Source of the DNA: Pseudomonas mendocina
Lineage (GTDB): Bacteria; Pseudomonadota; Gammaproteobacteria; Pseudomonadales; Pseudomonadaceae
Direction: 5' to 3'
DNA length: 64,000 bases
Assembly (NCBI RefSeq): GCF_900636545.1
Contig: NZ_LR134290.1
Span: 2,542,001 to 2,606,000 of the forward strand
Position numbers and translations under genes: made by a program. The first letter of the stretch is position 1, and each line of letters starts with the position of its first letter. Below the pieces are notes generated by a model that made no database searches, was not told where the DNA came from, and worked only from the letters and a program-made list of their open reading frames with translations. Below, piece after piece: positions 28,816 through 37,277 of the stretch.

Positions 28816-29517
28816 CTAGGTGCCAATCAACGTCGTGATCTGATTGACGCTGATCACCTGGCCGCTCCAGATCATTTCGTAATGCGCGCTCTGGATGATT
28901 GAAGCCACTGGCCGCGGCGTCATCAGTGCCCAGCAGATATTGCCGGCAGAGCGAACCGAGTGATAGCGCAGGCCCATGCATCCTGCGCTTTTGACCTCGG
29001 CCCCGAGCTGGTTGGAGTGGGAGTAGTCGCTCGGCGCATAGATCGGGTCGGATAGTGGCACGACCGTCGCGTCTCTCAACCCCGTTTCGTTGAAGTTGGC
29101 TGTCAGCCCTCTGAAGACGAAGCGCTCATAATTGAGCTCCGGCACCTTCGACCAGTAGCTTTCCTGGTGGTAGCACACCTCGGCAATCGCGGTATCCATC
29201 CTGTCCGCCAGGTACAGCACGCCGAAGCTGCCGTTGCTGAAGCGCGATCCGGCAGGGTTGACGTGGGTGAAGGGGGCCGTCGCGTACGAGCAGCCAGCAA
29301 TGCCGAAGGGAATCTGATCACGCGGGATCAGCTCCAGGCGACCAATCTCGTTCTGCAGCCTTGGATTGGTCAGCGCCTGGATCTGATAGAGGGCTTCGAA
29401 GTCCTCTGCGTCGGCGACGTCATCGAACAGGGCGATGGGCGGGAACTTGGAGTTGACCAGGCGATAGGCTTGTACCGGCTCATCCTCCAGCAGCGGCAGG
29501 TCGCTGAGCATTACCAC
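28816..29517 (-). CDS. RES-domain toxin of a RES-Xre toxin-antitoxin pair
   Basis: 233 residues from a GTG at 29517 with GAGG six bases upstream; an ATG at 29511, overlapping the antitoxin stop as TAATG, is an alternative. The RES domain spans about 60-200 and contains the Arg-Phe-Ser segment (AGSRFSNGSFGVLYLADRMDT) and conserved Glu (AIAEVCYHQ) that shape the NAD pocket. Characterised RES toxins are ADP-ribosyltransferase-fold enzymes that degrade NAD+ and arrest growth. It follows and overlaps the Xre antitoxin, the standard order for this TA type. No truncation is seen. Confidence 0.9.
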   Translation of the reverse strand: MVMLSDLPLLEDEPVQAYRLVNSKFPPIALFDDVADAEDFEALYQIQALTNPRLQNEIGRLELIPRDQIPFGIAGCSYATAPFTHVNPAGSRFSNGSFGVLYLADRMDTAIAEVCYHQESYWSKVPELNYERFVFRGLTANFNETGLRDATVVPLSDPIYAPSDYSHSNQLGAEVKSAGCMGLRYHSVRSAGNICWALMTPRPVASIIQSAHYEMIWSGQVISVNQITTLIGT

Positions 29518-29918
29518 TGAGCACCTCGCAGTGTGTCGATGCGCCGGAACGTCTCGTACAGCGAGATCATGTCGCCTTGCGCCATGACTTCCATTGGCGT
29601 GCGACCGTTGAAGAACTCGTTGTGATTCTCCATCAGGGCAAAGCCATAGACGTTATCGGGGTTGTCGAACATCACGCGCAATGCGGCATGGATATTCAGC
29701 ACCAGGCTGATGCGCTGCATCTGATCGGAATCCAGGCTCACCGTCCACGACGAGTCCTTCTGGCTGGCACGGGCGTAGGTGCTGCGGGAAATTCGTAGCA
29801 CTCGGCAGGCCTGCTCGGCCGAGGCCTTCCACTTGTCGAGAATGTTCAACGCCGCGCGCAGACCGGCTGCGCACTGGCTTTTCGAGAAGTCCTGAAGCTG
29901 GAGGGCTGTAGCAGTCAT
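29511..29918 (-). CDS. Xre/MbcA/ParS-type antitoxin of the RES-Xre pair
   Basis: 135 residues from the ATG at 29918 (MTATALQLQDFSKSQ) with GAAGGG upstream; the longer frame to 30026 runs through the operator. An Xre-like HTH at about 20-65 (ILDKWKASAEQACRVLRISRSTYARA) is followed by the DUF2384 toxin-binding domain (about 75-130), whose end NEFFNGRTPMEVMAQGDM is diagnostic. It should neutralise the RES enzyme and repress its own promoter through the palindrome 50 bases upstream. Confidence 0.9.
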   Translation of the reverse strand: MTATALQLQDFSKSQCAAGLRAALNILDKWKASAEQACRVLRISRSTYARASQKDSSWTVSLDSDQMQRISLVLNIHAALRVMFDNPDNVYGFALMENHNEFFNGRTPMEVMAQGDMISLYETFRRIDTLRGAQW

Positions 29919-29936
29919 ATAGAACCCTTCTTTGTG

Positions 29937-29978
29937 TCTGCAGATAAATTTATAGCATATTTTAATCTGCAGATTAAA
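29937..29978 (-). promoter_or_regulatory. Probable antitoxin operator: 18-bp palindrome plus half-site copy
   Basis: TTTAATCTGCAGATTAAA at 29961-29978 is a perfect 18-bp palindrome. Its core is repeated 29 bp away as TCTGCAGATAAATTT (29937-29951). The AT-rich stretch lies just upstream of the antitoxin gene, where autoregulatory operators of such pairs lie. Binding is inferred, not shown. Confidence 0.72.
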
Positions 29979-30028
29979 TTTGCTTACTTTCCCGAACGAA
30001 GAGAGGTCAGCGTCAGCGCCCGACAAAC

Positions 30029-30070
30029 TTGATCACGGTCAATTTTAAACCGGCCCTCGAAGCGTAGATT
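30029..30070 (+). promoter_or_regulatory. Anr/Dnr-type box and -10 of the nrdD operon
   Basis: TTGATCACGGTCAA (30029-30042) matches TTGAT-N4-ATCAA in nine of ten positions. TAGATT at 30065-30070 is spaced as in a class II FNR-type promoter and puts the start of transcription near 30077. An anaerobic activator in front of an anaerobic ribonucleotide reductase makes functional sense. Confidence 0.8.
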
Positions 30071-30131: not shown

Positions 30132-32150
30132 GTGTATAAGGAGCGTGTCCCATATCGACCGCAGTCGTTGTTCAAGCGCGACGGCCAGGAGGTGCCTTTC
30201 GAGGGCGCCAAGATAGAGCGTGCGATCACTGCTGCTGGCCAGGCCACTGGGGAATTCGCGGCGATTGAGGCCAAGGCGCTCTCCGACGCGGTGCTGGCAC
30301 GTCTGACGGAGTTCCGCAGCCTGGACGTGGAGCAGGTTCAGGATCGGGTCGAGCAGGTGCTGATGGAGGCCGGTTACTATCAGACCGCACGCGCCTACAT
30401 CGTCTATCGCGAGCGGCATGGTCGTCTGCGGCGCGACCGCAAACACCTGATCGATGTAGCGGCGTCGATGAACGAATACCTGTCGCGCGAGGATTGGCGG
30501 GTGCAGGCCAACGCCAACCAGGGCTATTCACTGGGTGGGCTGATTCTCAACGTATCCGGCAAGGTGACGGCCAACTACTGGCTGGACGAGGTATACAGCG
30601 AGGAGGTCGGCCGGGCACACCGTGAGGCCGACCTGCACATCCATGACCTCGACATGCTGGCCGGATACTGCGCGGGTTGGTCGCTGCGCACGCTGCTGCA
30701 TGAGGGTTTCAATGGCATCGCGGGGCGGGTCGAGGCGGGGCCGCCCAAGCATCTGTCCAGCGCGCTGGGGCAGATGGTCAACTTCCTCGGGACCCTGCAG
30801 AACGAATGGGCCGGCGCTCAGGCGTTCAGCTCGTTCGATACCTACCTCGCGCCTTTCGTGCGCAAGGACGGTCTGACCTACGACGAAATCCGCCAGGCCA
30901 TTCAGGAGTTCATCTACAACCTCAACGTGCCGTCGCGCTGGGGGACACAGACGCCTTTCACCAACCTGACCTTCGACTGGGTCTGCCCCGAGGACCTGCG
31001 TGAGCAGGTGCCGGTGATCGGTGGCCAGGAGATGTCGTTCTGCTACGGCGACCTGCAGGACGAGATGGAGCTGATCAACCGCGCCTACATCGAGGTCATG
31101 ATGGCCGGCGACGCGAAAGGGCGGGTGTTCACCTTCCCGATCCCGACCTACAACATCACCCACGACTTCCCCTGGGACAGCGACAACGCCACGCGTCTGT
31201 TCGACATGACCGCGCGCTATGGCTTGCCGTACTTCCAGAACTTCCTCAATTCGGACATGCAGCCTAATCAGGTGCGCTCGATGTGCTGCCGCCTGCAACT
31301 GGACGTGCGTGAGCTACTGAAACGCGGCAACGGGCTGTTCGGCTCAGCGGAGCAGACGGGGTCCCTTGGCGTGGTGACCATCAACTGCGCGCGCCTCGGC
31401 TATCGCCATCGGCAGGATCTGCCCGGCCTGCTACAGCGCCTGGATGCGCTGCTGGACATGGCGTACGAAAGCCTGGAGGTCAAACGCAAGGTCATTCAGC
31501 ACCACATGGATGCAGGGCTCTATCCCTACACGCGGCGCTACCTGGGCACGCTGCGCAATCACTTCTCCACCATTGGTGTGAACGGCCTGCACGAAATGCT
31601 ACGCAACTTCACCGGCGACCGCGAAGGCATGCACACCGAGCTGGGGCGTGAGCTGGCGCTGCAGGTGCTCGATCATGTGCGGGCGCGCCTGGTGCAGTTC
31701 CAGGAACGCAGTGGCCATCTCTACAACCTCGAAGCCACGCCGGCCGAGGGCACTACCTACCGTTTCGCCAAGGAGGACCAGAAGCGTTTCCCCGACATCC
31801 TCCACGCTGGGACGGTCGATGCGCCTTACTACACCAACTCCTCGCAACTGCCAGTCGGCTTCACTGACGATCCCTTCGAAGCCTTGGCCCTGCAGGACGA
31901 GCTGCAATGTAAGTACACCGGCGGCACCGTGCTGCACCTGTACATGGCTGAGCGGATTTCTTCGGCGCAGGCCTGCAAACAACTGGTGCGCACGGCGCTG
32001 TCGCGCTTCCGCCTGCCGTACCTGACCATCACCCCGACCTTCTCCATCTGCCCGGTGCACGGTTACCTGGCTGGTGAACATGAGTTTTGCCCAAAGTGCG
32101 ACGAGGTACTGCTGCAAAAACAGCAGTGCTGCGGCGCCTGCGGCGGATGA
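30132..32150 (+). CDS. nrdD: Anaerobic (class III) ribonucleoside-triphosphate reductase large subunit, lacking its glycyl-radical tail
   Basis: 672 residues, GTG start at 30132 behind a near-perfect AGGAGGTG. An ATP-cone lies at about 8-95 (LFKRDGQEVPFEGAKIERAI), then the ten-stranded barrel with the active-site loops (NLNVPSRWGTQTPFTNLTFDW; GSLGVVTINCARLG). The C-terminus has a Cys-rich zinc-ribbon segment (Cys640, Cys653, Cys656, Cys666, Cys667, Cys670) and then stops. E. coli NrdD continues with RVCGYLG, which holds the radical Gly681; that motif is absent here and appears in the next gene. The enzyme reduces NTPs to dNTPs without oxygen. Confidence 0.95.
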   Translation: MYKERVPYRPQSLFKRDGQEVPFEGAKIERAITAAGQATGEFAAIEAKALSDAVLARLTEFRSLDVEQVQDRVEQVLMEAGYYQTARAYIVYRERHGRLRRDRKHLIDVAASMNEYLSREDWRVQANANQGYSLGGLILNVSGKVTANYWLDEVYSEEVGRAHREADLHIHDLDMLAGYCAGWSLRTLLHEGFNGIAGRVEAGPPKHLSSALGQMVNFLGTLQNEWAGAQAFSSFDTYLAPFVRKDGLTYDEIRQAIQEFIYNLNVPSRWGTQTPFTNLTFDWVCPEDLREQVPVIGGQEMSFCYGDLQDEMELINRAYIEVMMAGDAKGRVFTFPIPTYNITHDFPWDSDNATRLFDMTARYGLPYFQNFLNSDMQPNQVRSMCCRLQLDVRELLKRGNGLFGSAEQTGSLGVVTINCARLGYRHRQDLPGLLQRLDALLDMAYESLEVKRKVIQHHMDAGLYPYTRRYLGTLRNHFSTIGVNGLHEMLRNFTGDREGMHTELGRELALQVLDHVRARLVQFQERSGHLYNLEATPAEGTTYRFAKEDQKRFPDILHAGTVDAPYYTNSSQLPVGFTDDPFEALALQDELQCKYTGGTVLHLYMAERISSAQACKQLVRTALSRFRLPYLTITPTFSICPVHGYLAGEHEFCPKCDEVLLQKQQCCGACGG

Positions 32151-32189
32151 GGACCTCATCCAGCACTAACCACCACAAGGAGCGACACC

Positions 32190-32339
32190 ATGAACGCACA
32201 ACTGAAACTTCCCGAAGCCCAGCGGCAGCGCTGCGAGGTCTGGACCCGGGTGATGGGCTATCACCGGCCAGTGACGGCCTTCAACCTGGGCAAGCAGTCC
32301 GAGCATCGCGAGCGCCGTCATTTCGTCGAGCCACGTTGA
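32190..32339 (+). CDS. Separate glycyl-radical domain of class III ribonucleotide reductase (49 aa)
   Basis: ATG at 32190 behind AAGGAG, stop at 32337-32339. The peptide contains EVWTRVMGYHRPVTAFNLGK at 16-35 and ends in a basic tail. It aligns by eye with the extreme C-terminus of E. coli NrdD (RRVCGYLG...RPFNAGKQEEVKRR), so Gly23 is the predicted radical site. It lies 39 bp after nrdD, which lacks this motif, and before nrdG, its activase. I infer a two-polypeptide catalytic subunit, comparable in principle to GrcA/YfiD replacing the radical end of pyruvate formate-lyase. It falls below usual ORF length cut-offs and is easily missed. Confidence 0.9.
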   Translation: MNAQLKLPEAQRQRCEVWTRVMGYHRPVTAFNLGKQSEHRERRHFVEPR

Positions 32340-32406
32340 TTGCGCCGTGAGTCCGGGCCATTACGATGGCCCGGACTTCGCCATCTTCATTCCTGGAGTG
32401 ACGGCC

Positions 32407-33132
32407 ATGCCTCCATCTCCCTTGCATCCAGCCCGCCAGGCGTTGCGCATTGGTGGGCTGCAGCCGATGACGACCCTCGACTACCCCGATCACCTGGCCT
32501 GCGTGCTGTTCTGCCAGGGCTGCGCATGGCGCTGCCGCTATTGCCACAACCCGGAGCTGATCCGCTGCGGTGCAACGAACGCCGAATGGAGCTGGGCCAA
32601 GGTGTTGGATTTCCTGCAGCAGCGCCAGGGACTGCTGCAGGCGGTGGTGTTTTCCGGTGGCGAGGCTACCCTGCAGCTAGCGTTGCCGTCGGCCATGCGT
32701 CGGGTACGCGAACTGGGTTTCAAGGTCGGCTTGCACAGCGCCGGGATCAAACCGGCTTCGTTCGGACGCGCACTGGCGCATTGCAACTGGGTCGGTTTCG
32801 ACGTCAAGGCATTGGAGGAAGAGTCGGCCCTGATCACCGGCGTCAGCGGCAGCGGCCAGGCCAACTGGAAAAGCCTGGAGCTGCTGCTGGCCAGCGGTGT
32901 GAGCTACGAATGCCGCACCACGGTGCATTGGGACCTGTTCGATTGCCGGCACCTGCGACGTCTGGGCGAACGCCTGGCGGCTCAAGGCGTACGCCGCTTC
33001 GCAGTGCAGCTGGCTCGCTCGCAGCGGATGCTCGACGAGCAGTTGGGCACTGCTGCCACACCACCGCAGGCGGCAGAGCTCTGGCCTTACTTCGAGCAAC
33101 TGTTCGAACGTTTTGAACTGCGCGCGGCCTAG
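32407..33132 (+). CDS. nrdG: Anaerobic ribonucleotide reductase activating protein NrdG (radical SAM)
   Basis: 241 residues from the ATG at 32407 with GGAG 8 bases before it; a GTG at 32347 is less likely. The radical-SAM CX3CX2C cluster is Cys39, Cys43 and Cys46 (in QGCAWRCRYCHNPE), followed by a GGE-like VFSGGEATLQ. It cleaves S-adenosylmethionine to put the radical on the glycine of NrdD, here presumably Gly23 of the 49-residue protein just upstream. At 241 residues it is longer than E. coli NrdG (154) and closer to the PflA/NrdG-2 subtype. Confidence 0.93.
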   Translation: MPPSPLHPARQALRIGGLQPMTTLDYPDHLACVLFCQGCAWRCRYCHNPELIRCGATNAEWSWAKVLDFLQQRQGLLQAVVFSGGEATLQLALPSAMRRVRELGFKVGLHSAGIKPASFGRALAHCNWVGFDVKALEEESALITGVSGSGQANWKSLELLLASGVSYECRTTVHWDLFDCRHLRRLGERLAAQGVRRFAVQLARSQRMLDEQLGTAATPPQAAELWPYFEQLFERFELRAA

Positions 33133-33239: not shown

Positions 33240-34424
33240 ATGCTGATTACCGATAAGCGCAAGGCCCTGGCCATTCCGGCGATCCTGCGCCTGGGCTTTC
33301 GCCCATTCTTTCTGTTCGGCGCGGGACTGGCCGTATTGGCCGTGCCGCTGTGGATCATGGCGCTCTACGGCGGCCCTATCGCCGAGCCACAGGGTGGTTG
33401 GCTGGCCTGGCACCGCCACGAGCAGACGTTCGGCTTCGCCGGGGCCATCATCGCGGGCTTCCTGCTGACGGCGGTGCAGACCTGGACGGGGCGACCGAGC
33501 CTGTCGGGCAGACCACTGGCCTGGCTGGCCGCACTCTGGTTGCTGGGGCGTCTGAGCTGGTGGCTGCCTTCGTCCTGGTTGCTGCTGGTGGCCAACGTGG
33601 CGTTTCTACTCGCGGTCGCGGTAGTCATGGCCCGGCTGCTCTGGGCGGTGCGTCAGCGACGCAATTACCCGATCGTACTGGTGCTGGCGTTGCTGGCTGC
33701 GGCGGATCTGCTCAGTCTGCTCGGCGTGGTGTTCGGGCACGAGTCCTGGCAACGCCAGGGCTGCCTGACGGCCATCTGGCTGGTGGCCGCGATGATGACA
33801 GTGATCGGCGGGCGGGTGATTCCCTTCTTCACCCAACGCGGGCTGGGCCGGACAGAGGCAGTACAGCCCTGGGTCTGGCTGGATGTGGCCCTGCTGGTCG
33901 GCAATGTGCTAATGGCAGTGCTCACCGCTGCCGGACTGCTGCTGCAGCCTCATTGGCTCGGCACGATCCTGCCGCTGGCTCTGGGGCTGGGGCACGGGAT
34001 TCGTCTCTACCGCTGGTTCGATGCCGGTCTGCTGCGGGTGCCGCTGCTGTGGTCGCTGCACCTGGCCTATGCCTGGCTGGTAGTGGCTTGCATTGCGCTT
34101 GCGGCGTCGCAGCTGGGCGCTGCGCTGGCTTTCAGCCAGGCATTGCATGGGCTGACCATCGGTGCGATGGGCGGCCTGATCCTGGCCATGTTGGCACGGG
34201 TGTCGCTGGGCCATACGGGAAGGGCGCTGCAGTTGCCACGCGGTTTCGCCATCGCCTTCGTCGCGCTCAATCTGGCCGCGCTGGTCAGGGTCTTCGGCGT
34301 GTCCTTCGCCTACCAGCCGGCGCTCTGGCTGGCAGCCCTGGCCTGGAGCCTGGCCTTTGCACAATATCTCTACTGCTACGGGCCCATGCTGTGTCGGCCA
34401 CGTGTCGATGGTCATCCGGGCTAG
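33240..34424 (+). CDS. nnrS: NnrS family membrane protein
   Basis: 394 residues with about twelve hydrophobic segments and a GGGGAGGAG ribosome site. The N-terminal LRLGFRPFFLFGAG and WLAWHRHEQTFGF are hallmark NnrS blocks; the histidines are thought to bind heme/copper. NnrS proteins are induced with denitrification genes and protect cells against nitric oxide damage. It follows nrdG by 107 bp in an anaerobic/NO-defence block. Confidence 0.93.
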   Translation: MLITDKRKALAIPAILRLGFRPFFLFGAGLAVLAVPLWIMALYGGPIAEPQGGWLAWHRHEQTFGFAGAIIAGFLLTAVQTWTGRPSLSGRPLAWLAALWLLGRLSWWLPSSWLLLVANVAFLLAVAVVMARLLWAVRQRRNYPIVLVLALLAAADLLSLLGVVFGHESWQRQGCLTAIWLVAAMMTVIGGRVIPFFTQRGLGRTEAVQPWVWLDVALLVGNVLMAVLTAAGLLLQPHWLGTILPLALGLGHGIRLYRWFDAGLLRVPLLWSLHLAYAWLVVACIALAASQLGAALAFSQALHGLTIGAMGGLILAMLARVSLGHTGRALQLPRGFAIAFVALNLAALVRVFGVSFAYQPALWLAALAWSLAFAQYLYCYGPMLCRPRVDGHPG

Positions 34425-34447
34425 GGGCCAGAAAACAAGTGACCTCA

Positions 34448-34486
34448 CTGCCGCCGCGCACTCCTGCTTGGGGCGCGCGGCGGCAG
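34448..34486. terminator. GC-rich hairpin between nnrS and ytfE
   Basis: CTGCCGCCGCGC (34448-34459) pairs perfectly with GCGCGGCGGCAG (34475-34486) between convergent genes. No T run. Confidence 0.65.
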
Positions 34487-34490
34487 GGGC

Positions 34491-35174
34491 TTATTGATAG
34501 CCGACCGATTCACCCAACGCGCGAGGGAACAGCAGGTTGTTTTCCAGATGGATGTGTTGCATCAGGTCGCGGCGTAGTTCATCCAGCCCGCCGTAAAGCG
34601 CTCGCCAGGTGTTGCAGGCGTTGGCAGGCGGCTGCATGCCATTGGTCAATGCCACCATACGCTCCAGGGCATCGCCGTGCTGGTCATGCTCATAGCGCAT
34701 TACCGAAACCGGCGCACCCAGCATCACACCACCGCCGCGCTGGATCATCGGAAAGAGGATCTGCTCCTCCTTCTGCATGTGGCTTTCCAGTTCCTGCAGC
34801 AGATTCATCAACAGATCCGTCAGGCCCAGCGGGCAGTGCTCGCGGCCGCCGTGCACCTGTTCGACACGGGCCGCGAGGCGAATCAGCTCCGGCAACTGCT
34901 GGCGATGGACGTCGTGGTAGCGCTCCAGGATGTGATCGATAAGTTGCTCTGGCGGCGCCGTGCGCCAATCTTCTTCATTCCCTATTTCGCCGTCGAGCGA
35001 AAGCAGCTGTCGTTGTACCTGTTCGGCATCAATGCCGCGCTCCTGTGCTGCCTGGCGAAGGCTTTTCTGGCCGCCGCAGCAGAAATCGAGGTGGAACTCA
35101 TGGAGAACCCGGGTCGCACCGGGGATGTTGCAGGCGATGTGGCCGAGGGTGTGGTCGAGCAGTTGGCTGGCCAT
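34491..35174 (-). CDS. ytfE: Iron-sulfur cluster repair di-iron protein (YtfE/DnrN/ScdA)
   Basis: 227 residues. The N-terminal ScdA_N domain has FHLDFCCGGQKSL (about 27-39), then a hemerythrin-like four-helix bundle with iron ligands in HDVHRQQLPEL, ELESHMQKEEQILFPM, YEHDQHGD and HIHLENNLLFPRA. It repairs Fe-S clusters damaged by NO or oxidants. It is divergent from norR, with a sigma-54 promoter in between, the expected regulator-target pair. Confidence 0.95.
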   Translation of the reverse strand: MASQLLDHTLGHIACNIPGATRVLHEFHLDFCCGGQKSLRQAAQERGIDAEQVQRQLLSLDGEIGNEEDWRTAPPEQLIDHILERYHDVHRQQLPELIRLAARVEQVHGGREHCPLGLTDLLMNLLQELESHMQKEEQILFPMIQRGGGVMLGAPVSVMRYEHDQHGDALERMVALTNGMQPPANACNTWRALYGGLDELRRDLMQHIHLENNLLFPRALGESVGYQ

Positions 35175-35213
35175 GCATGGCTCCTTTCAGGCTGGTTTGT
35201 GCCTGTGCCCATC

Positions 35214-35227
35214 GCAAACACCGTGCC
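35214..35227 (-). promoter_or_regulatory. Sigma-54 (RpoN) promoter of ytfE
   Basis: On the minus strand GGCACGGTGTTTGC has the -24 GG and -12 GC with the obligatory 10-base spacing and matches the consensus TGGCACG-N4-TTGC except for the first base. It lies about 40 bases upstream of the ytfE start, next to the gene for the sigma-54 activator NorR. Confidence 0.85.
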
Positions 35228-35237
35228 GGGGCAAGAC

Positions 35238-35279
35238 TTGACGACAATCAAGGGCTAGCGCGGCTTACAGGTCTAATCT
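35238..35279 (+). promoter_or_regulatory. Anr/Dnr-like box and -10 of norR
   Basis: TTGACGACAATCAA (35238-35251) matches TTGAT-N4-ATCAA in nine of ten positions, and TCTAAT/TAATCT (35272-35279) lies at -10 spacing, giving a start near 35286. The same dyad could instead serve NorR as an enhancer for the divergent ytfE promoter. Confidence 0.6.
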
Positions 35280-35311
35280 ACCCGGCATGAATCAGGTCCG
35301 GGGCACCCGAA

Positions 35312-36841
35312 ATGGTAGATTTCACTCCCTTGCAGAACACCTTGCTCGCCGACCTGACAGGCGAGTTGCCCAGCGCTGTACGCCTGCAGCGACTAGTGGT
35401 CAGCCTGCGTGAAGTCTTCGCCTGCAGTGCGGTGGTGCTATTGCGCCTGGATGGCGACAATCTGCGACCTCAGGCTGCGGTCGGGCTCAGCCACGAAACC
35501 CTGGGGCGCAGCTTCGCAGTTGCCAGGCACCCGCGTCTGGCACTGATCATGGAGCAGCGCGCGCCGGTACAGTTTCCGGCCGATAGCGAGCTGCCCGATC
35601 CTTACGATGGCTTGTTGCAGCACAGCCCGGACGAGCCGCTACCGGTGCACGACTGCATGGGGATGAGCCTGGTGGTCGATGGTCGTACGTGGGGCGCGGT
35701 GACGCTCGATGCCTTGCGCCCCGGCACCTTCGACCGCCGCGCCGGCGAACGGCTGCAGCGCTATGGCCTGTTGATCGAGGCGGCGCTGCGGACCTGTCGA
35801 CTGGAGAACGAGATTCGCAGCCTGCGTCTGGTCCGCTCTGAGCCGGGCGAGGAGGGTGACGAGGCGGCGGGCATGATTCTGGGCGATAGCCCAATCCTCA
35901 CGCAGTTGCTCGACGAGCTCGGCGTGGTGGCTGAATCCGAATTGCCGGTGTTGCTGCAGGGCGAAACCGGCGTCGGCAAGGAATTGTTTGCCCGTTGGCT
36001 GCATGCCCATTCGCCCCGCGCGCGCAAGCCGCTGGTGTACGTCAATTGTGCAGCTCTGCCAGAGACGCTGGCGGAAAGCGAGCTATTCGGGCATGTGCGC
36101 GGCGCGTTTTCCGGCGCCACGCAGGATCGGCCCGGGCGCTTCGAGGCCGCCAACGGCGGCACGCTGTTTCTCGACGAGATCGGTGAGCTGCCGCTGTCGA
36201 TCCAGGCCAAGTTGCTGCGTGCCCTGCAGAACGGCGAGATTCAGCGCCTGGGCTCGGACCGCACGCGGCATGTCGATGTCCGGGTGATCACCGCGACCAA
36301 CCGACGGCTGTGGGAAGAGGTTCGTGAGGGGCGATTCAGGGCCGACCTCTATCATCGTCTGTCGGTCTACCCGGTACACATCCCGTCGCTGCGCGAGCGG
36401 GGCAGGGACATCCTGCTGCTGGCCGGGCACTTTCTCGAGCTAAACCGCGCGCGCCTGGGCCTGCGCTGCCTGCGTCTGGCGGCCGATGCCGAGGAAGCGC
36501 TGCTTGGCTATTGTTGGCCAGGCAATGTGCGTGAACTGGAACACGTGATCAGCAGGGCTGCGCTCAAGGTATTGAGCCAGGCCGAGTCGCGTACCGCTTT
36601 GCTCAGTATCGGTGCATCCTGGTTGGGTCTGGAAGGCCCGGTCTCGCTGCCGGCAAGTGCCCCTGCAGCGCCGCGCCCGGTCGCCAGCGAGAGCCTGCAG
36701 CAGAGCGTGGATCGCTATCAGCGGGAGCTGATCCGCAACGCACTGAGCGAGCATGGTGGTAAGTGGGCCGCCACTGCACGGACGCTGGCCGTCGATCCGA
36801 GCAACCTGCGCAAGCTGGCAAGGCGATTGAACCTTCTTTGA
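35312..36841 (+). CDS. norR: NO-responsive sigma-54 activator NorR
   Basis: 509 residues. The N-terminal GAF domain (about 20-170) senses NO through a mononuclear iron. The central AAA+ domain has Walker A GETGVGKE at 217-224 and the sigma-54 contact loop GAFSGA at 264-269, where most activators have GAFTGA. A C-terminal Fis-type HTH begins at about 462 (WAATARTLAVDPSNLRKLARR). It is divergent from ytfE, its probable target. A denitrification regulator such as DnrR or FhpR is the same family. Confidence 0.93.
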   Translation: MVDFTPLQNTLLADLTGELPSAVRLQRLVVSLREVFACSAVVLLRLDGDNLRPQAAVGLSHETLGRSFAVARHPRLALIMEQRAPVQFPADSELPDPYDGLLQHSPDEPLPVHDCMGMSLVVDGRTWGAVTLDALRPGTFDRRAGERLQRYGLLIEAALRTCRLENEIRSLRLVRSEPGEEGDEAAGMILGDSPILTQLLDELGVVAESELPVLLQGETGVGKELFARWLHAHSPRARKPLVYVNCAALPETLAESELFGHVRGAFSGATQDRPGRFEAANGGTLFLDEIGELPLSIQAKLLRALQNGEIQRLGSDRTRHVDVRVITATNRRLWEEVREGRFRADLYHRLSVYPVHIPSLRERGRDILLLAGHFLELNRARLGLRCLRLAADAEEALLGYCWPGNVRELEHVISRAALKVLSQAESRTALLSIGASWLGLEGPVSLPASAPAAPRPVASESLQQSVDRYQRELIRNALSEHGGKWAATARTLAVDPSNLRKLARRLNLL

Positions 36842-37151: not shown

Positions 37152-37192
37152 AGCCTAGTGGCGCCAGTTGTGGCGGCCTTGATCGATATCAA
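37152..37192 (-). promoter_or_regulatory. Anr/Dnr box and -10 of the DUF3079 gene
   Basis: TTGATCGATATCAA (37179-37192) is a perfect TTGAT-N4-ATCAA palindrome. On the minus strand TAGGCT (37157-37152) sits at class II spacing, giving a start near 37144 and a leader of about 27 bases. Confidence 0.85.
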
Positions 37193-37234
37193 GTTTCGGC
37201 GCATTCGGCGCCGTGAGGAAACGGCCGGACCGAC

Positions 37235-37277
37235 TTGATCGCAGTCAAGGCGACCGCTGTGATGCGTCGCCTAGAGT
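37235..37277 (+). promoter_or_regulatory. Anr/Dnr box and -10 of ubiUVT
   Basis: TTGATCGCAGTCAA (37235-37248), nine of ten consensus positions, with TAGAGT at 37272-37277; predicted transcript start near 37283, 26 bases before ubiU. Confidence 0.82.

Follow-up and report, generated by a model that had tools for sequence, protein, structure and literature searches.

A Class III Ribonucleotide Reductase of Pseudomonas mendocina with Its Predicted Glycyl-Radical Peptide Encoded by a Separate Gene, and Related Peptides in Other Bacteria and in Phages

Introduction

Glycyl-radical enzymes are described as holding their radical on a covalent C-terminal loop, where it is destroyed by oxygen. The nrdD–nrdG locus of Pseudomonas mendocina (contig NZ_LR134290.1, positions 2,542,001 to 2,606,000; this stretch of 64,000 nucleotides is referred to below as the window) raises the question of whether that loop has to be part of the same chain. 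The catalytic chain of the class III ribonucleotide reductase (RNR), NrdD, ends before the loop, and a 49-residue open reading frame (ORF) between nrdD and the activase gene nrdG carries a loop-like sequence. The reading best supported by the analysis is that of a two-piece catalytic subunit, because the two products are complementary parts of one profile, the genes are separate in any frame, occur in several orders and are present as single copies, and a structural model agrees. The complete explanation, in which the separate peptide docks non-covalently in NrdD and receives its radical from NrdG, is very probably correct. At the level of sequence, the analysis establishes the split and its conservation, shows that the peptide gene is independent and documents copies in phages.

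Organization of the Locus

The features of the locus are as follows.

30132..32150, plus strand: nrdD, class III RNR catalytic chain without the glycyl-radical loop; 672 aa, GTG start, TGA stop at 32148-32150
30174..30422, plus strand: ATP-cone of NrdD, residues 15-97 (PF03477, E = 3.2e-20)
31284..31289, plus strand: Cys385-Cys386 of the SMCCRL motif, invariant in a 66-row alignment
32049..32099, plus strand: zinc ribbon CPVHGYLAGEHEFCPKC, residues 640-656 of NrdD, after which the family profile is left
32177..32182, plus strand: Shine-Dalgarno sequence AAGGAG of the small ORF, seven bases 5' of its ATG
32190..32339, plus strand: separate predicted glycyl-radical peptide, 49 aa, ATG start (PF13597 positions 531-562 of 562, E = 3.2e-8, above the cut-off)
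32232..32234, plus strand: Cys15 of the peptide, a cysteine in 136/136 scored split loci (near-duplicates included)
32256..32258, plus strand: Gly23, predicted radical glycine of RVMGYHRP, inside the radical-loop part of PF13597
32347..33132, plus strand: nrdG, radical S-adenosylmethionine (SAM) activase of the NrdG2 type; GTG start at 32347, or perhaps the in-frame ATG at 32407

NrdD matches PF13597 over profile positions 2-528 of 562 (E = 1.5e-175, Pfam), and the small ORF takes up positions 531-562. Hence, the cut in the NRDD profile falls after the zinc ribbon and before the radical loop, with hardly anything lost. The profiles TIGR02487 and NF006126 are cut at the same place; NrdD scores 1130 bits against NF006126 (subfamily PRK08270, curated cut-off of 548), and the small ORF alone scores below the whole-protein cut-offs of both. 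The NRDD barrel of a class III RNR and the ATP-cone known from many members are thus present (PF13597, PF03477), and an NrdG adjoins them (TIGR02495, 201 bits with a cut-off of 131, and a PF04055 match); NrdD, however, stops at profile position 528 and so has no C-terminal glycyl-radical loop of its own. The initial annotation had placed nrdD, the 49-residue ORF with its ribosome site and nrdG at these positions, had noted that nrdD lacks a radical motif after its Cys-rich zinc segment, and had taken the small ORF, aligned by eye, for the radical end of NrdD. The sequence and the profile search agree with it on these points.

The pair Cys385-Cys386 is taken to be the catalytic thiyl site on the finger loop. 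Residues C640, H643, G644, C653 and C656 of the ribbon are invariant across 66 split and fused rows and presumably bind zinc, as in the family. Gly23 is invariant in a seven-row tail alignment (A2); the larger viral and cellular core sets were extracted with a pattern containing this glycine and are no test of its conservation. A PF13597 search of the genome (single contig, 5.19 Mb) found one place only, in two pieces with one TGA inside, and no second NrdD. The PF01228 profile (the type of pyruvate formate-lyase (PFL) and GrcA) had no match in the genome at E ≤ 0.01 and none in the small ORF at E ≤ 1, and a search of Protein Data Bank sequences with the tail profile gave no match at E ≤ 1.

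The small ORF is more than a chance frame, because 1006 proteins, each 0.55-1.75 times as long, match it at E ≤ 1e-3 (120 of them listed) and its 34-codon core shows a mean pN (nonsynonymous) of 0.094 and pS (synonymous) of 0.586, with a pN/pS of 0.16 (31 comparisons, each against the window).

Distribution and Independence of the Peptide Gene

Searches for the peptide were positive in 32 of 149 genus genomes, 20 of 194 order genomes and 33 of 369 class genomes; these samples overlap, and the window's own genome is among them. The belief that similar small ORFs occur in other pseudomonads was thereby borne out, and the distribution reaches far beyond them. Loci L001 and L004-L077 (75) were taken from these searches, with L076 excluded for having no usable NrdD; of the 74 counted, 72 are split, one is fused (L077) and one was left unclassified (L051). 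Two further genus-search matches without loci, which the script did not class, have open frames of 95 and 97 and are split-like. Four class-search matches were without loci, one being a split-like second copy in genome G603. Weak class-search matches in G350, G391 and G663 lie in open frames of 613-735 codons and are fused-like; the first two were seen as fused in L093 and L089.

A search of 398 genomes from the phylum with NF006126 gave matches at E ≤ 1e-30 in 28, of which 16 score above the cut-off. Thirteen of the latter are split (12 with the tail adjoining nrdD, and G975 with the tail elsewhere) and three are fused. A set of relatives, the best 80 of at least 579 by similarity to the fused NrdD L092 of the same phylum, consisted of 49 split loci with the tail downstream, 25 fused loci and six without a downstream tail: in L148 the tail is upstream, in L132 it is on another contig, and L133, L134, L137 and L153 are cut off by the end of a contig. 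Among the split members are Flavobacterium, Algoriphagus, Sulfuricurvum, Campylobacter concisus and Akkermansia as well as Proteobacteria, so that the split arrangement is found in several other bacterial phyla; fused members include Brachybacterium, Cellulomonas, Rickettsiales metagenome-assembled genomes (MAGs), Maricaulis and an Acidiphilium plasmid. Cupriavidus necator H16 has three genes, for NrdD (676 aa), a 66-aa 'nrdD' (H16_RS32675) and NrdG, and a Bradyrhizobium plasmid has the same arrangement. Among the matches listed, small proteins of the peptide type are named by NCBI after the enzyme.

The peptide gene is not tied to its place behind nrdD. The tail lies 3' of nrdG plus one more ORF in Sulfuricurvum (L136) and 3' of two other ORFs in an Arcobacteraceae locus (L135). 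In G975, the tail and nrdG are paired about 8.4 kb from nrdD, with opposite-strand genes between, and in the Campylobacter MAG G1059 they stand together on a contig different from that of nrdD; in these two genomes the tail keeps company with the activase gene. The nrdG of the rearranged loci was identified by eye from the radical-SAM motif.

The cysteine four residues ahead of the T in TRVMGY, found in all 136 split loci, is Thr in 16 and Cys in 14 fused chains. The freed C-terminus of NrdD (32100-32147 in the window) has a close cysteine pair in a minority of loci (e.g., CCGACGG, CCA, CCTE): among the 136, CC or C-x(1-4)-C occurs in 20, a single cysteine in 10 and none in 106. These pairs resemble the redox tails of class I/II enzymes; a C-terminal dithiol as a new redox arm of split NrdDs was set aside, being confined to 20/136.

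For the phylogeny, 171 loci passed the score filter, 168 had coverage and 105 rows remained after 90% clustering; L051, L134, L153 and the other NrdD types L094-L105 were left out. In the 105-row tree, where long branches meet, the fused label changes six times, with two changes forced by well-supported branches, and the split label changes 11 times, with unlinked, upstream and contig-end rows labelled apart. A two-state tree of 101 rows, without the long branches L089, L093, L090 and L179, requires four changes, at least three of them forced by starred branches. Hence, split and fused states have been interchanged a few times. The trees are quick ones with many weak forks, and they do not fix the root or the direction of the changes.

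Proposed Mechanism

In the proposed two-piece enzyme, NrdD would contribute the zinc ribbon, the ATP-cone and a barrel that holds the thiyl cysteine. The peptide would put its RVMGYHRP loop non-covalently into the barrel, at the site of the covalent loop of other NrdDs, and NrdG would generate the radical on Gly23 of the docked peptide, which would then initiate substrate reduction as in ordinary class III enzymes. Docking, activation by NrdG and radical transfer are inferred, the last by analogy with fused class III RNRs. As the oxygen-labile residue would be carried by a small part of its own, a fresh copy could take the place of a damaged peptide, and phages could provide a peptide of their own; exchange after oxygen damage is a speculation.

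In the predicted model, the peptide occupies the radical-loop site of solved NrdDs. The initial annotation had proposed the two-piece catalytic subunit, and this is supported by the profile halves, the separate genes, the single copies and the model.

Several points weigh against the two-piece enzyme. Docking in the model is partly imposed, since the input was an artificial read-through chain and 24 of the 66 alignment rows were fused homologues. A control without fused rows gave a whole-enzyme pLDDT (predicted local distance difference test) of 66.3 and a pTM (predicted template modelling score) of 0.56; this model is poor because the alignment was garbled, five checked NrdD rows being aligned to just 399-481 residues of the first row, and it counts neither for nor against docking. 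Re-fusion appears to take place, so that the two parts do not always stay apart. In the MAGs of L133 and L137, which have a split-type NrdD at a contig end, the genome search gave no tail anywhere, and in L051, also from a MAG, stop codons interrupt both the end of NrdD and the tail. The evidence for the explanation comes from sequence and a model. Finally, Siedow et al. (1999) reportedly studied C. necator NrdD with NrdG, placed the radical in NrdD and named Gly650.

Among the alternatives, the strongest accepts the split and takes the peptide for a permanent, never-exchanged subunit with no repair role, its separation being a neutral accident. The fused rows lying among split ones in the tree fit this, as does the fused chain of Maricaulis (L152), which retains the split-type lead 'EEDRQPCEVW' inside it; the radical loop of Prevotella copri NrdD is buried (PMC11226230). 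Against it, the split is found in several phyla, the genes may be unlinked, and the solo phage copies described below make sense solely if a peptide made elsewhere can be loaded. We regard this alternative as possible, at somewhat under an even chance. The wider form of the two-piece proposal, namely a widespread trans-acting class III RNR with a loadable radical cartridge, which many phages lacking NrdD and NrdG bring along to keep up or take over anaerobic deoxynucleotide (dNTP) synthesis of the host, and in which the oxygen-damaged cartridge is replaced rather than the enzyme, might equally well prove right or wrong.

Phage-Borne Copies

Two scans of IMG/VR gave 147 confirmed relatives (80 kept) and 70, respectively, for a total of 138 loci (L203-L340). 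Removal of 23 with identical surroundings left 115, among which same-phage copies from different samples remain. In 110 of these, the peptide stands without an NrdD or NrdG match at E ≤ 1e-6 in the piece; four have NrdD, and in one the peptide is part of a long ORF. An open frame of at most 130 codons encodes it in 103 of the 110 solo loci. The split-type cysteine is present in 92 of 95 distinct viral cores, and the nearest cellular core is split for 71, fused for six and tied for 18, with a reference richer in split cores. The peptide of L283, the only one compared with PHROGs, matches phrog_4132, a group of unknown function. These phage-borne solo peptides suggest, and do not prove, that the radical part is exchangeable and that a separately made peptide can load into the host enzyme.

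An alternative is that the solo peptides are host sequences within a collection of viruses, or that they come from viruses with an NrdD gene outside the fragment. IMG/VR does include host flanks and fragments, none of the 50 whole records described below was graded ≥90% complete, flanks of 2.5 kb or more on either side are available for only 60 of the 110 solo loci, and INPHARED phages gave one weak match only, so cultured phages lend no support. However, when one large ORF was taken from each of 20 solo loci drawn at random, 16 matched virion or packaging families, two matched replication families and two had no match (L272 is represented by its second-largest ORF, the largest lying antisense over it). 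L283 has a terminase, L215 and L232 have tape-measure proteins and L246 has structural proteins; of ten proteins compared, two were without a family, one each in L246 and L232. In addition, PF13597 matches 49 of 50 hand-picked whole viral records, 37 above the cut-off; 50 of the 51 matches lie in profile positions 513-562 and one, of 15 bits, in 503-529, and the NrdD barrel is absent from all 50 records. The viral copies have a pN/pS of 0.165 over 93 pairs. This alternative therefore seems improbable.

Three further loci were observed. L238 (620-6952) holds a viral split class III RNR, in which nrdD begins with an ORF of 1261 aa, followed by another ORF, a 130-aa nrdD piece, the tail and nrdG. 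In G603, a second, orphan radical peptide (L201, 1803-1991, minus strand) lies near a RecT-family ORF, perhaps in a prophage; an ORF with a class I/II RNR barrel is found where the retrieved sequence ends. Another second, orphan peptide, in G1064 (L202, 2445-2609, plus strand), lies in an element that also encodes a reverse transcriptase (RVT_1) and what looks by eye like an integrase; this element is probably a prophage with a diversity-generating system.

One Chain or Two

The small ORF is in the frame of nrdD, a detail missing from the initial annotation; the two are separated by a single TGA followed by 39 nt, or 13 sense codons. This arrangement called for a test of whether the TGA is recoded. 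The TGA could be read through, or a frameshift or sequencing error could hide a single ORF, giving an ordinary fused NrdD; the frames are indeed uninterrupted by any further stop, and the genome-wide PF13597 match joins both pieces across the TGA. Against this, the tail falls into the three frames relative to nrdD 45, 49 and 43 times among 137 split loci (near-duplicates included), with no conserved frame across the stop, and read-through, including selenocysteine insertion, was rejected on this distribution. With the first ATG as the start, gaps range from 17 to 78 nt in the genus loci and from 1 to 108 nt in the order loci, in all frames and after TGA, TAA or TAG. The small ORF has its own ribosome site: a Shine-Dalgarno-like 5-mer stands ahead of an ATG start in 100 of 117 distinct split loci, where a locus with several starts could score with any of them, versus 48 of 1401 nrdD-internal ATGs. 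The gene order is also altered in some loci. A sequencing frameshift, which the initial annotation would have counted against itself, was rejected since the split is shared by dozens of genomes. A single hidden chain is therefore very unlikely, and no second full NrdD was found in the genome.

It is equally hard to credit that the radical sits on Gly644 of HGYLAG in the zinc ribbon of NrdD, with the small ORF as an accessory: HGYLAG resembles RVCGYLG, and in C. necator H16 NrdD the HGY glycine of the ribbon is residue 650, but fused relatives have the HGY zinc ribbon followed by the RVxGY loop, the NRDD profile ends with the tail, and HGY is flanked by invariant Cys and His.

Gene Neighbourhood

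30029..30042, plus strand: putative Anr/Dnr (FNR-type) box TTGATCACGGTCAA, 89 bases 5' of nrdD, an exact TTGAT-N5-TCAA match

The window contains five matches to TTGAT-N5-TCAA (one palindrome counted on both strands), versus 0.22 expected; further FNR-type boxes lie at 35238-35251 and 37179-37248. The stretch 33240-36841 encodes NnrS, a ScdA_N/hemerythrin protein and a probably NorR-like sigma-54 activator with a GAF domain. With these genes and the additional boxes, nrdDG is located in a nitric-oxide/denitrification neighbourhood. On the minus strand 5' of nrdD (28816-30026), a RES-domain ORF (PF08808) and an Xre-like antitoxin ORF (PF20432) form a probable toxin-antitoxin pair. A Dnr box ahead of nrdDG has been described in Pseudomonas aeruginosa (PMC5645315).

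Implications and Comparison with Known Systems

If true, the proposal describes a natural case in which an essential enzyme depends on a radical peptide with a gene of its own. It makes three questions testable: whether the activase acts on the free peptide or on the complex, whether the radical part is exchangeable after oxygen damage, and how dATP inhibits an enzyme whose radical domain can leave. Reconstitution from NrdD and NrdG alone should fail if the proposal is right, and if Gly650 was indeed named as the radical site, as reported, that assignment, to the HGY glycine of the zinc ribbon, merits re-examination. A role is also suggested for the small protein of the phages, which falls into a PHROG of unknown function.

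The proposal bears on P. aeruginosa, C. necator and C. metallidurans, denitrifiers whose nrdD has been the subject of published work and for which only nrdD and nrdG are named in the parts of the papers available. In C. necator H16, a non-pathogenic laboratory strain, NrdDG is reported to be essential if denitrification is to be complete, and B12 offsets the defect of cells that lack pHG1 (PMC2864759). For P. aeruginosa, these two genes are named in PMC5645315 and PMC4860495; in C. metallidurans CH34, they are Rmet_5137 and Rmet_5139 (PMC2864759), which leaves one locus number between them. In one paper with C. necator fitness data, 'nrd' is absent from the main text. In the open-licence literature searched, in the parts available, an NrdD radical domain with its own gene is nowhere described; subscription papers may describe one.

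The fused NrdDs of P. copri (8p23/8p2s), Thermotoga maritima (4coi) and phage T4 (1h7a), with their NrdG, share with the window's enzyme the barrel, the thiyl cysteine, the zinc ribbon, the loop sequence and the activase, and P. copri NrdD also shares the ATP-cone. They differ in that the window's radical loop is on a separate polypeptide from a separate gene. In P. copri NrdD, inhibition by dATP accompanies a loosened radical domain (PMC11226230). The split class II enzyme NrdJa/NrdJb of P. aeruginosa also distributes an RNR catalytic chain over two genes (PMC4860495, PMC4520616); however, it belongs to another class, with another split point and a cobalamin radical. Phage nrdD genes in pieces are known too (PMC3653736), broken there by introns, inteins or unknown events; 'glycyl' does not occur in the main text of that paper.

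A further likeness is to GrcA/YfiD of Escherichia coli and Y06I of phage T4, small radical domains that are made as free proteins, combine with a large barrel and receive their radical from the radical-SAM activase of the enzyme, with a phage version in existence (PMC8683613), as is proposed for the peptide. YfiD and Y06I are the sole validated spare parts of PFL, spare parts for other glycyl-radical enzymes may exist, and no activation of YfiD was detectable without cleaved PFL (PMC8683613). The analogy with GrcA/YfiD drawn in the initial annotation is apt as a description of how the peptide would work, but it does not extend to family or role. The peptide is of the NrdD family (PF13597) with no PF01228 match, and the genome, with its one PF13597 place, holds no enzyme with a covalent domain of its own for it to supplement. 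Since the host NrdD lacks that domain, the peptide would replace it rather than back it up, as an obligate part of the enzyme and not a spare.

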